The notes under the pieces were generated by a model. That model was not told where the DNA came from, made no database searches, and saw nothing but the letters and a program-made list of their open reading frames with translations. A stretch of 22,288 nt of DNA from a virus: the IMG/VR virus record IMGVR_UViG_3300030099_000594, positions 1-22,288 of that record; one strand, 5' to 3'. This document shows positions 12,689 through 22,288 of this stretch, in pieces. Made by a program: the position numbers and the translations under genes. Numbering within the stretch: position 1 is the first letter of the stretch; each line of letters starts with the position of its first letter.

Positions 12689-13537
12689 ATGACTATATAT
12701 GATGAAAGACCATTAACTAAGATGCCAGAAGAAATAGCATTTGACGTTTCTTTTGAGCCTACCAGATTTGACATGCGTAAGTATGTCATCAACAACAATA
12801 CTGATGAGGTGATAGGAATTGTAGGTAAAGACTTTAAATGTGCCAGTCACATTGATTTCTACAGACAGGTCAGAGATACAGTTGTAGCTGAACTTAGTGA
12901 CCATGACCTAGATGGTGCGACATTAACTTGGCGAACTGCCAGAAACAATGCTTGGACTATGATGGATATGCGTTTGCCAAACGTGACACATAAGATAACG
13001 ACTAGCAAACATCAGACTGACGTAGCACAAAGAATTATAGCTTTGCATGGTGTTGATGGGTCTTGTAGTAACATTACCTTATTTGGTGCAATAGACTTTT
13101 ATTGTACTAATGGCATGGTTACTGGCGAATACAATACCATTAAACGAAAGAATACATCAGGGTTTAGCTTAGAATCTTTCATAGATGAACTGTATAGGTC
13201 TAAAGAAGATTTTACTCAGCAGATGGGCATTTTGCAGAAATGGGCAGATACTACGTTGATTTACGTTAATGTCAAAGAGGTTCTAGAGAAGATGATTAAG
13301 TCTGAACGTAAAGCTGAGAAGATGCTCAAGCTATACAATCAAGAGCGAATCACCAGAGGTGCTAATGTATTTGCCTTATATAGTGCTTTGACTAACTATT
13401 CATCTTACGCAGATGAGAGAAATGGTTTCGCTCTTAGAAACACTGGCTACGATACTGCATCTGAGTCAATGTGGAAGCGAGAGAACGAAGTGTCACAATG
13501 GGTATCATCTCCTATCTTTAAGGAGTTAGTAGCATGA
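12689..13537 (+). CDS. DUF932 family protein, copy 1
   Basis: 282 residues. Matches the DUF932 phage/plasmid family: an N-terminal strand-rich part with VGKDFKCASHIDFYRQV, a central block RIIALHGVDGSCSNITLFGA then IDFYCTNGMVTGEYNTIKRK, and a C-terminal helical part with RGANVFALYSALTNYSSYAD followed by ERNGFALRNTG. Biochemical role unproven; the family is common in phage early and replication regions. The same-length paralogue at 16554-17402 shares nearly all these blocks, so the pair arose by duplication and divergence. Its stop overlaps the next start (GCATGA). Confidence 0.85.
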   Translation: MTIYDERPLTKMPEEIAFDVSFEPTRFDMRKYVINNNTDEVIGIVGKDFKCASHIDFYRQVRDTVVAELSDHDLDGATLTWRTARNNAWTMMDMRLPNVTHKITTSKHQTDVAQRIIALHGVDGSCSNITLFGAIDFYCTNGMVTGEYNTIKRKNTSGFSLESFIDELYRSKEDFTQQMGILQKWADTTLIYVNVKEVLEKMIKSERKAEKMLKLYNQERITRGANVFALYSALTNYSSYADERNGFALRNTGYDTASESMWKRENEVSQWVSSPIFKELVA

Positions 13538-16505: not shown

Positions 16506-16553
16506 TACATAATTAACTATCAGTTGCAACCTAACCAGAAAAGGAGATTACAA

Positions 16554-17402
16554 ATGCCATTTGATTTAACAACAAACAACTTTCAAGTACCTGAGAACTT
16601 TGACTTTGAGGTGGAGTATGAGCCATCCAAAGTACCTGACAAGAAGTACGTCAAGGTTAAAGGTACAGACACATACCTTAACGTGGTGGGTAATGGCTTC
16701 ACTACTACGTCACACACAAACTTTGCCCACACTGTATGGAATACCATGCAAGACAAGCTATCTGCTGATGAGCTAGATGGTATGACTATTGACTGGAAGT
16801 CTGCACGTAATGATGGGTACATGATGATGGACATCACATTACCTAGCGTGAGCTATGACATCTACACAGATAAGCATAGCGAGAAGATTGGACAGCGTAT
16901 CATAGGTCTGCATGGTGTAGATGGTCTGTGTTCTAACATCGTGGTGTATGGACAGATCTCATTCTTCTGCACAAACAAGATGGTACGAGGTGAGCATGAC
17001 ATCGTGAAGCGTAAGAACACATCTAACTTCTGCATAGATAGCTTTGGCAGACAGCTAGAGAAATCTTCAACAGACTTCTATGACCAAGCTAACACACTAC
17101 AACAGTGGGCAAACACATCCACAGTTAATGTAGATGTTAAGGCTATGTTTGAGAAGATTATGTCTGACAAACAGGCAGAGAAGATGTACTCACTCTATGG
17201 TGCAGAGGTAAGTACACGAGGTGCTAATGCCTACAGTATCTACAGTGCCTTCACTAACTATGCAAGCTATGCTGATGAGCGTAATGGCTTTAAGCTACGT
17301 AACACAGGCAAAGATACTGAAGCAGTATCCATGTGGAACAGAGAGCTTGACGTTACCAAGTGGGTAAAGTCCAAGCAGTTTCAAGACTTGGTGGCGGCAT
17401 AA
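16554..17402 (+). CDS. DUF932 family protein, copy 2
   Basis: ATG 16554 with AAGGAG nine bases upstream (a TTG at 16524 lies before this RBS). 282 residues, the same length as copy 1. Shared blocks are RIIGLHGVDGLCSNIVVYGQ, CTNKMVRGEHDIVKRKNTSN and RGANAYSIYSAFTNYASYAD then ERNGFKLRNTG; the N-terminus is the most divergent part. It is less AT-rich than the early region and heads the integration/replication operon, its stop sharing an A with the integrase start. Two diverged copies suggest separate roles or a heteromer (inference). Confidence 0.87.
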   Translation: MPFDLTTNNFQVPENFDFEVEYEPSKVPDKKYVKVKGTDTYLNVVGNGFTTTSHTNFAHTVWNTMQDKLSADELDGMTIDWKSARNDGYMMMDITLPSVSYDIYTDKHSEKIGQRIIGLHGVDGLCSNIVVYGQISFFCTNKMVRGEHDIVKRKNTSNFCIDSFGRQLEKSSTDFYDQANTLQQWANTSTVNVDVKAMFEKIMSDKQAEKMYSLYGAEVSTRGANAYSIYSAFTNYASYADERNGFKLRNTGKDTEAVSMWNRELDVTKWVKSKQFQDLVAA

Positions 17403-19254: not shown

Positions 19255-20478
19255 ATGGAACTATCATTAGTACGCAGTCTGATGGACAGAAAGTTTTACG
19301 ATGACCATCGTGGAGCAAGATGCCCTGACCGACTGTTCACAAAAGATGTCCGCAAGATTAAGCAAGCCGTTGACCTTGCTATGGACAGATATGAAAGGAC
19401 TGTGACACCTGATGAGATAGAAGCTCTCTTCATGTCTAGCAATCCTACACTTACAACGGCACAGAAGCAGGCATATGGTGACTTGTTTCGTAAGATTAAA
19501 GCTGAGACACCTATGGGTAGTGACGTAGCACAGGAGGTGCTGTCTAAACTATTCCAACAGGTAGTGGGCGAAGACATAGCGAACTTAGGATTTGACTATG
19601 TGAATGGTACGCAGACTAGCCTTGAGCCTCTACGTAACTTACTTGAGTCTTACTCAGATGACTTTACTCCTGACCTCAAGATAGAGTGGGATGATATGTC
19701 TATTGAGACACTGCTTGCTAAGAACAAGATGGAAGCAAGATGGACATTCAACATACCCTCACTTACTCGTGTGCTTGAAGGTGTGAACGAGGGTCACTTG
19801 GTTGAGATAGGTGCTAGACCTAACACAGGCAAGACATCTTTCCATGCAAGTCTGATTGCAGGTCCGAATGGATTTGCTAGACAGGGTGCAAACTGCATTG
19901 TCTTATGTAATGAAGAAGCGTCACACAGAGTTGGTGCTAGGTACTTGACTGCGGCATCAGGCATGTCGGTGCAAGACATCAAGGCTAACCCACGTAAAGC
20001 TAAAGAGTTATACGACCCTGTTCGACAGAACATTAAGGTACGTGATGTGACAGGTAGAGATATGTCATGGGTTGAGTCTGTATGTAAGTCTTACAAGCCT
20101 GACATTGTAGTATTAGACATGGGCGATAAATTTGCCAAGACAGGAGGATTTGCTCGACAGGACGAGGCACTCAAGGCTAATGCAGTCCATGCTCGTATGA
20201 TTGCAAAGCAACACAACTGTGCTATCTTCTACATGTCACAGCTATCTGCTGAAGCAGAGGGTAAGGTAATACTTAACCAAGCTATGATGGAAGGCTCACG
20301 TACAGGTAAAGCTGCTGAAGCAGACCTGATGCTTTTGATTGCTAAGAATCCTGTAAGAGAGAACGAGGATGAGGAAGACCCACAGCGACATATTAATATT
20401 GTTAAAAACAAACTGTCAGGATATCATGGTGTTATACACTGTAATCTTGACTACAAAACAGCGAGGTATTCAGCATGA
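19255..20478 (+). CDS. Replicative DNA helicase, DnaB/RecA-like
   Basis: 407 residues. Walker A GARPNTGKTS (186-195), Walker B DIVVLDMGDK (283-292), a glutamine switch YMSQLS (Q329) and a basic finger VKNKLSGYHG (384-391) identify a hexameric DnaB-family (SF4) helicase. The N-terminal about 170 residues are helical (RKFYDDHRGARCPDRLF onward) and correspond to the primase-interacting domain. It unwinds the fork for the DNA polymerase and works with the primase encoded upstream. Its last codons RYSA-stop overlap the start of the HNH gene. Confidence 0.92.
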   Translation: MELSLVRSLMDRKFYDDHRGARCPDRLFTKDVRKIKQAVDLAMDRYERTVTPDEIEALFMSSNPTLTTAQKQAYGDLFRKIKAETPMGSDVAQEVLSKLFQQVVGEDIANLGFDYVNGTQTSLEPLRNLLESYSDDFTPDLKIEWDDMSIETLLAKNKMEARWTFNIPSLTRVLEGVNEGHLVEIGARPNTGKTSFHASLIAGPNGFARQGANCIVLCNEEASHRVGARYLTAASGMSVQDIKANPRKAKELYDPVRQNIKVRDVTGRDMSWVESVCKSYKPDIVVLDMGDKFAKTGGFARQDEALKANAVHARMIAKQHNCAIFYMSQLSAEAEGKVILNQAMMEGSRTGKAAEADLMLLIAKNPVRENEDEEDPQRHINIVKNKLSGYHGVIHCNLDYKTARYSA

Positions 20479-21152
20479 AAAAATTTAATAAAAAAGAGTA
20501 TGATGCAAAATATTGGCTAGAGAACAAAGAAAAACTGAAGGAGTGGCATAAGAATTATCGTCAAGAAAACAAAGAAAAACTGAAGGTAAGTGCGCAAAAG
20601 TATTATCAAGAAAATAAAGAAAGAATTAATGAACAAGGCAGAAGATATAGGCAAAAAAACAAAGAAAAAATAAATATGAGGATGGCAGAATATTATAAGA
20701 AAAATAGAGAAATAATTATTGAAAAATCTACAAGATATAGGCAAGAAAATAAAGAAAGAGTTAATGAACGAATAATGAAACGATATTATAGCGATATAGA
20801 ATTTAAACTAAGAATGTCTTTAAGAAATGATTTACGAAAGAGACTAAAAGCTCATCTAGCTAATAAGACTTCTTCAGCTTTATCGTTAACAGGTTGCACT
20901 ATGGAGGAGCTAAAAGCTCACATAGAAAGTAAGTTTGAAGATGGTATGTCATGGGAAAACTGGGCAGTAGATGGTTGGCATCTTGACCACATTATTCCTT
21001 GTAGTTCCTTTGACTTAACGATAGAAGAAGAACAAAAGAAATGTTTTCACTACACAAACCTACAGCCGTTGTGGGCAAAAGACAATCTGAGTAAGTATAA
21101 TAAACTAAACTGGAGTAAAGAAGATATGAAGGAGGAAAGGTATACAGCATGA
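20475..21152 (+). CDS. Free-standing HNH homing endonuclease
   Basis: 225 residues. Residues 1-105 are about six repeats of a 15-17-residue Lys/Glu-rich unit ([YW]-x-Q/E-ENKEK-x2-K), a long basic helix likely to lie along DNA. Residues 139-210 hold the HNH nuclease: GCTMEELKAHIESKFEDGMS, WHLDHIIPCS (D171, H172), then FHYTNLQPLWAKDNLSK (N195, N204). More AT-rich than the helicase and polymerase on either side, indicating a mobile intruder. ATG overlaps the helicase stop, and TGA overlaps the polymerase ATG. The 17-base junction AGGTATTCAGCATGAAA recurs at its 3' end with one change. Confidence 0.9.
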   Translation: MKKFNKKEYDAKYWLENKEKLKEWHKNYRQENKEKLKVSAQKYYQENKERINEQGRRYRQKNKEKINMRMAEYYKKNREIIIEKSTRYRQENKERVNERIMKRYYSDIEFKLRMSLRNDLRKRLKAHLANKTSSALSLTGCTMEELKAHIESKFEDGMSWENWAVDGWHLDHIIPCSSFDLTIEEEQKKCFHYTNLQPLWAKDNLSKYNKLNWSKEDMKEERYTA

Positions 21153-22288
21153 AACTAACACTTGACGTAGAGAACACTGTCACCAAGCGTGATGGTAAGT
21201 TACATCTTGATCCCTTTGAGCCTACAAATGAGCTTGTTATGGTGGGTATGTTATCAGATAATAATGAAGAAAAGATTGTAACATTCAATCACAACAGAAA
21301 GAGTCCTACTCCCTCTGGTAAAGAGATAGTACAGGATTGGCTAGACAGATCTACTATACTCATTATGCATAACGCATCACATGACTTGTTGTGGTTGTGG
21401 GAGAGTGGATTTACATATGATGGTCCTGTGTTTGACACTATGCTAGGTGAGTATGTATTACAGCGTGGGTTAAAGCAACCGTTATCTCTTGAAGCATGTG
21501 CGGAAAGATATGACTTAGCTACAAAGAAGCAAGATACCATGAAAGAATACTTTAGTAAGGGCTACTCTGTAGCAGGTATACCTTGGCAGGAATTAACAGA
21601 TTATTTATCTGCAGACTTACATGCTACACAGCAGTTAGCAGACACAATCTATAAAAGATTATTATTAGAGGATCACTCTTTAAAAGATACCGTAGACCTT
21701 ACTAATCAAGTAGCTGTGTGTCTATCACGTATCTATCAACGTGGTTTTGCAGTAAATTTATCTGCATTAGACAGAGTGCAAAAGGAGTTTGAAGAAGAGA
21801 AAAAAGAAATACTAGATGATCTAAGTATACAGGTTAGAGAGTTGATGGGAGATACTCCTATTAATCTTAATAGTCCAGAGCAACTATCTTGGGTTATTTA
21901 CAGCCGCAAGCCACAGGACAAAACAGTATGGGCAAATACATTTGACCCTTATATGCCAGTCAATGAGTACAAGACTGCGGTAAAGAAGCACTCTACTGTG
22001 CTATGTAAACAGATAGCACATCAATGTAACACCTGTAAAGGATCAGGAATTATAAGAAAGGTAAAGAAAGATGGAACACCATTTGCTAGAACAAATAAAT
22101 GTGTCGATTGTCGTGGGCATGGTTATGTTTACATTATATGTAATAATGTGGTGGCAGGGTTAAAGTTTAATGCGCCCAATGCTAAATGGATTAGTGCTAA
22201 TGGTTTTAGCACGAATAAGACAAACCTATTGTATCTTGAAAGGATTGCTCGTGCTAGGAATATGGATAGTGCTGTTGCTTTTCTTAGT
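21149..22288 (+). CDS. Family A DNA polymerase with DnaJ-type zinc insert, 3' part cut off by window edge
   Basis: 380 residues visible from ATG 21149 (GGAGG at 21131). The 3'-5' exonuclease domain has TLDVEN (D6, E8), MHNASHDLLWLW (N75, D79), VFDTML (D96) and DYLSADLHAT (D156). Then comes a helical region, and residues 286-331 hold a DnaJ central-type cysteine-rich insert: C293-NTC-KGSG and C318-VDC-RGHG, with extra C286 and C331. This is the unusual feature described for HMO-2011 polymerase. The palm/fingers region with its catalytic aspartates is expected past the right edge. Replicative polymerase working with the helicase and primase. Confidence 0.95.
   Translation, partial: MKLTLDVENTVTKRDGKLHLDPFEPTNELVMVGMLSDNNEEKIVTFNHNRKSPTPSGKEIVQDWLDRSTILIMHNASHDLLWLWESGFTYDGPVFDTMLGEYVLQRGLKQPLSLEACAERYDLATKKQDTMKEYFSKGYSVAGIPWQELTDYLSADLHATQQLADTIYKRLLLEDHSLKDTVDLTNQVAVCLSRIYQRGFAVNLSALDRVQKEFEEEKKEILDDLSIQVRELMGDTPINLNSPEQLSWVIYSRKPQDKTVWANTFDPYMPVNEYKTAVKKHSTVLCKQIAHQCNTCKGSGIIRKVKKDGTPFARTNKCVDCRGHGYVYIICNNVVAGLKFNAPNAKWISANGFSTNKTNLLYLERIARARNMDSAVAFLS

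Follow-up and report, generated by a model that had tools for sequence, protein, structure and literature searches.

Results

The polymerase gene at the end of the window

The window, by which we mean the whole 22,288-base virus record analysed here, ends inside a gene that starts at position 21149 on the + strand and continues past 22288, so that only the first 380 residues of its product are present. The features of this gene that concern us are as follows.

21149..22288, +, family-A DNA polymerase gene, 5' part (phrog_17 DNA polymerase, E=1.8e-32; 63% identity to the HMO-2011 polymerase)
21338..21661, +, 3'-5' exonuclease domain, matched part, residues 64-171 (PF01612, E=3.2e-7)
21782..21904, +, beginning of the polymerase domain, a stretch of the thumb carrying NLNSPEQL, residues 212-252, upstream of the insert (PF00476, Klenow alignment)
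21905..22201, +, enlarged loop of the thumb, residues 253-351 (some 100 residues long, compared with 11-15 in the cellular Pol I compared)
22004..22024, +, first predicted stalk strand, residues 286-292 (DSSP on AlphaFold2 models)
22025..22048, +, first putative zinc knuckle CNTCKGSG, residues 293-300 (sequence; PF00684; cysteines and glycines invariant)
22049..22099, +, basic hairpin IIRKVKKDGTPFARTNK with tip RKVKKDG, residues 301-317 (tip motif in 237/240 relatives; dN/dS 0.070)
22100..22123, +, second putative zinc knuckle CVDCRGHG, residues 318-325 (sequence; PF00684; cysteines invariant)
22124..22153, +, second predicted stalk strand, residues 326-335 (DSSP on AlphaFold2 models)
22202..22213, +, GFST, residues 352-355, return to the common family-A thumb (aligns with G-Y-S-T of cellular Pol I)

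Immediately upstream, a 225-aa endonuclease VII/HNH-like gene (phrog_1035; 20475-21152) lies between the helicase and polymerase genes and overlaps each by 4 bases. The helicase and polymerase genes of HMO-2011 overlap directly, and an endonuclease VII label is found near the helicase in CRP-345. Elsewhere in the window, the genes at 12689-13537 and 16524-17402 (282 and 292 aa) have translations that look alike by eye, and the 282-aa product matches DUF932.

The putative zinc motifs and their relation to DnaJ

Both of the CxxCxGxG motifs claimed in a preliminary description of this DNA, CNTCKGSG and CVDCRGHG, are present in the open frame 21149-22288 (+). The DnaJ central-domain profile PF00684 matched residues 289-328 of the window protein (E=1.4e-4, 22.5 bits), and a search with a 47-aa piece gave E=7.1e-6 and 26.6 bits; both scores are below Pfam's gathering score of 32.7 bits. 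The same profile matched every one of the 61 relatives scanned from a diverse alignment, and the four cysteines are kept in 240/240 full-length polymerases collected as relatives from IMG/VR and isolates. On these three grounds we conclude that the motif pair is not a chance occurrence. The lack of a DnaJ match, which the preliminary description had named as a refuting outcome, was therefore not what we observed.

The PF00684 match in the insert covers only profile positions 15-54 of 65, and the best match of the insert to E. coli DnaJ is to repeats 2-3, which in that protein form zinc centre II. Thus, the insert corresponds to roughly half of a DnaJ domain. What had been called a DnaJ-type zinc finger is probably a DnaJ-like hairpin linking CxxCxGxG knuckles, but it has two repeats where DnaJ has four, and its cysteines would be ligands for a single zinc rather than for the two of DnaJ or for the more than one site previously envisaged. 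Likewise, the spacing is only approximately that of DnaJ, as 21 residues separate the inner cysteines compared with 18 between repeats 2 and 3 of E. coli DnaJ. In addition, the insert differs from DnaJ in its basic KxKKDG tip, and the polymerase gene has no J-domain. The invariance of C293, C296, C318 and C321 suggests that these residues bind the zinc. A search of NCBIfam returned nothing more specific than generic matches to DNA polymerase I, DnaJ and anti-TRAP, and the insert alone, compared with solved structures, matched E. coli DnaJ at E=0.62 with the remainder chance-like.

Location of the insert in the thumb

According to the preliminary description, and likewise to the papers on HMO-2011-type phages, the insert separates the exonuclease from the polymerase part of the protein. 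Our alignments do not agree with this placement. The alignment with Klenow continues through NLNSPEQLSWVIYS onto the thumb NLSSTKQLQTILFE before the insert starts, and a profile of the 61 relatives aligned with the Klenow fragment from the exonuclease through the thumb NLSSTKQLQTILFEKQ, broke, and resumed in the polymerase domain. A weak PF00476 match (residues 212-254, E=0.05) also begins upstream of the insert. Because both the flanking motifs and the Klenow alignment place it there, we locate the insert, on sequence grounds, within the thumb tip region, in the loop that follows the SPxQL helix, which is a different loop from that carrying the thioredoxin-binding domain of T7. The loop length given above was measured from the thumb segment to the G-[YF]-S-T motif.

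T7 gp5 resembles the window polymerase in being a family-A phage polymerase with a large thumb insertion. However, with the extent of the T7 domain taken as established, this insertion precedes the equivalent FNPSSRDHI motif of T7, upstream of the thumb N-P-S-S, whereas the present insert lies after the motif; T7 is short at the site of the present insert, the present polymerase is short at the T7 site, and the T7 domain has no zinc motifs and no similarity that we found. MAFFT did put the T7 insertion (length 88) in the same columns as the insert, an alignment artefact, since the flanking motifs decide the placement.

The same thumb loop is enlarged in other phage polymerases, to 53 residues in QDWS535 and MEP402 and to 100-138 in five Autographiviridae. 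These loops have no CxxC pairs, and none was found in the thumb loop of the six phage polymerases from outside the HMO-2011 group that we read; several carry a lysine/glycine-rich stretch, for example SGKNKGxxK, a resemblance seen by eye. In QDWS535 (L087:3983-5898) and MEP402 (L088:3992-6103), neither of which has the zinc insert, the polymerase is encoded by two genes, with the break just upstream of motif A, and that of ICP2 (L308:1953-4521) is a joined CDS enclosing another gene.

Conservation and selection

Among the 240 full-length relatives, the pattern CxxC-x21-CxxC occurs in 239, with x33 in the remaining one; in the isolate CRP-738 the hairpin is lengthened. A set of 46 representatives sharing less than 80% identity showed no variation at any of the four cysteines or at either glycine of repeat one; repeat two does vary at its first glycine, a further difference from DnaJ. 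At the tip, 237/240 relatives have the motif [KR]x[KR]K[DN]G, and the net charge between the knuckles ranges from +2 to +9.

The tip had the lowest dN/dS measured, 0.070, with the palm and fingers at 0.085, the exonuclease at 0.112 and the stalk and zinc region at 0.152; these values come from 1,500 phylogenetically overlapping, non-independent pairs and are read as a ranking for which no significance is claimed. By this measure the hairpin tip is under constraint comparable to that on the catalytic core.

Predicted structure

We obtained AlphaFold2 models of a full-length relative, L003, which is 79% identical to the window protein (mean pLDDT 90.7), and of the window's own 123-residue piece (pLDDT 91.4), in which the layout is as in the L003 model, with a strand on either side of the zinc region (residues 286-292 and 326-335); the models carry neither metal nor DNA. 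The full L003 model superposed on the Pol I enzymes of Bacillus, Klenow and Taq over residues 1-677, with Z of 31-33 and rmsd of 2.7-3.5 A.

When the piece was compared with the PDB using Foldseek, the leading relevant chains were DnaJA2, BSD2, UvrA and anti-TRAP, all with weak E-values. DnaJA2 and BSD2 stood near the top of the list, but at E of 0.23-0.34. The match to UvrA covered 36 residues at 2.0 A (probability 0.96, E=0.56), with the zinc module concerned unspecified in the output. VIA-align of the insert returned DnaJA2 (Z 2.7), anti-TRAP (Z 2.0-2.2) and nothing else, and in BFVD most of its matches were phage proteins that are small and uncharacterised.

Phage group and distribution

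Previous work has defined the HMO-2011 type in part by its polymerase, whose "partial DnaJ central domain" contains two CXXCXGXG motifs (PMC9038755, PMC6918029, PMC8528129); the enzyme has been called atypical on that account (PMC9038755, PMC6918029). The dataset of PMC9038755 comprises 207 genomes from metagenomes together with 2,433 sequences of the polymerase, and such enzymes account for up to 19.7% of the family-A polymerases in ocean virome sets (PMC9038755). The window polymerase has both motifs and the partial domain, its polymerase half having been read in close relatives. The polymerases of HMO-2011, the roseophages CRP-1, CRP-2 and CRP-3 and the pelagiphage HTVC033P carry the same insert at the same place in the same gene, at 30-64% identity over the covered part. 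Thus, the window polymerase is an ordinary member of a published group and the insert itself is already known; what is new here is its placement in the thumb, the single putative zinc site, the basic and constrained tip, and a role that can be tested.

In a phylogeny in which the window is represented by L003 (79% identical), its own partial protein having been left out, the polymerases of the window's group, HMO-2011, CRP-3 and HTVC033P form one clade, and L003 pairs with HMO-2011 at 99/99. With the insert columns removed, the eight zinc-bearing polymerases sampled fall on one side of a 99/99 branch, a clade that is consistent with a single gain of the insert. A search of 50,697 phage records, with hits accepted to an E of 10, found no similar insert outside the HMO-2011 group. 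DnaJ is mentioned in the papers on Acinetobacter phage Loki and the Poorviridae, in connection with other proteins only.

The kinship proposed earlier extends beyond this gene, as the polymerase, helicase, TerL and portal are all of HMO-2011 type. The window TerL and portal are 74% and 67% identical to those of HMO-2011, and up to 80% and 75% identical to those of CRP-603 and CRP-2. The insert had also been taken to fix the phage group of the window. TerL and portal bear out the group, but the insert is a marker of the replication module and not of the phage as a whole, because structural and replication modules are exchanged among these phages (PMC8528129) and because CRP-9 and CRP-13, which gave TerL and portal matches, are absent among the listed polymerase matches.

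Matches in a scan of bacterial genomes were confined to MAGs and one single-cell genome, and we therefore assign no host. A polymerase of HMO-2011 type that shares 43% identity with the query (L323) lies on a contig of the alphaproteobacterial genome AG-899-M17, which looks like a single-cell genome and gives a possible host link. Identical phage contigs (L315/L316 and L319/L320) are filed under the Flavobacteriales TMED123 and Neomarinimicrobiota MED589 MAGs, so at least one of these binnings must be wrong.

The gene downstream of the polymerase

In 172 relatives, the gene that follows the polymerase encodes a product of 230-340 aa whose last 25 residues have a mean charge of -6.6; this charge is -4 or lower at 156 of the 172 loci, and the product of the gene after that has a mean of -0.3. 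The isolates have the same order of polymerase and acidic-tailed gene. The gene at L082:7083-7985, and at the same place in relatives, is conserved and unannotated. Because our searches found no recognised domain in this protein, nor a solved relative or SSB match, we can only infer that it is a candidate single-strand binding protein, and as such it is a plausible partner of the hairpin.

Discussion

We favour, tentatively and at somewhat short of an even chance, the idea that a zinc-stiffened basic hairpin grips the new duplex and so raises processivity. The insert would be a single-zinc DnaJ-type beta-hairpin, borne on a two-stranded stalk in the thumb tip loop of the polymerase. One zinc ion held by C293, C296, C318 and C321 would stiffen this hairpin, and its basic aromatic tip (K/R-x-K/R-K-D-G-x-x-F/Y/W) might touch the phosphate backbone of the new duplex or close over it. 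Such a contact would increase DNA affinity and processivity, with no need for a thioredoxin-like factor.

Our preference is based on the thumb position, the basic and constrained tip, the lysine/glycine-rich stretches in the same enlarged loop of other phage polymerases, the precedent of polymerase theta Insert 1 and the UvrA fold. Insert 1 is likewise a thumb insertion of a family-A polymerase; it makes contact with the minor groove and matters for processive synthesis (PMC9962433); however, it is eukaryotic and 31 residues long, and we liken the two by description, not by sequence. UvrA is also a DNA-handling enzyme, and its zinc-module hairpin superposes on the insert, but it is an ABC ATPase, and we have no sequence evidence for common descent to set beside the weak Foldseek E-value. 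In UvrA, a hairpin joined to the third zinc module takes part in DNA contacts (PMC7835731); the C-terminal zinc finger, as reported from ref 42 of that paper, regulates damage-specific binding and does not bind DNA directly.

Against a grip on DNA, a basic tip would suit protein docking equally well. The hairpin could bind an acidic-tailed replication protein, likely the product of the next gene, and thereby couple the polymerase to the coated template. We consider this possible but rather unlikely. The acidic tails at 156 of 172 loci and the synteny in isolates speak for it, as does T7, where the acidic tail of the SSB binds the thumb insertion of the polymerase; more generally, the T7 and human mitochondrial polymerases bind their processivity factors via thumb insertions (PMC7699545). 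Yet we infer both the SSB identity of the downstream protein and its binding to the polymerase, and the strict KxKKDG sequence exceeds what a loose charge contact would need. The two ideas are not mutually exclusive. A combined form, in which the hairpin and the neighbouring acidic-tailed protein make up a self-contained, thioredoxin-independent device that couples the polymerase to an SSB and raises processivity, and that was gained once and retained by one of the most abundant phage groups in the ocean, is in our judgement doubtful as a whole.

Three further roles seem less probable to us. Zinc might merely shape the enlarged thumb loop, with the insert making no DNA or protein contact of its own. 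Zinc knuckles are often the folding cores of small domains, and the flanking strands here make a stalk, but the most constrained part is the solvent-side tip, which goes beyond the zinc ligands alone, so a pure brace is improbable. We regard as very unlikely a chaperone or redox role, in which the half DnaJ domain would bring in the DnaK of the host or serve as a thiol switch. The sequence does match DnaJ repeats 2-3, the interaction of DnaJ with DnaK is reported to depend in some measure on zinc centre II (PMC4428491), and the HMO-2011 papers cite the role of DnaJ in lambda replication (PMC9038755); however, the gene encodes no J-domain, the aligned E. coli DnaJ hairpin lacks the basic tip, and the hairpin is also present in unrelated proteins, UvrA and anti-TRAP among them. 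The preliminary description had mentioned a thioredoxin-like processivity contact. In the form known from T7 we find this hardly credible even though both inserts are thumb insertions of family-A phage polymerases, because the T7 domain sits in the other thumb loop, that loop is short here, and we found no sequence similarity between the two.

In the papers on HMO-2011-type phages that we read, we found no functional test of this hallmark insert. Once the insert is assigned to the thumb, and its basic tip is seen to be under constraint like that of the active site, the loosely defined "partial DnaJ domain" becomes a testable proposal for how these phages might hold DNA, with the exact residues and a possible partner gene named.
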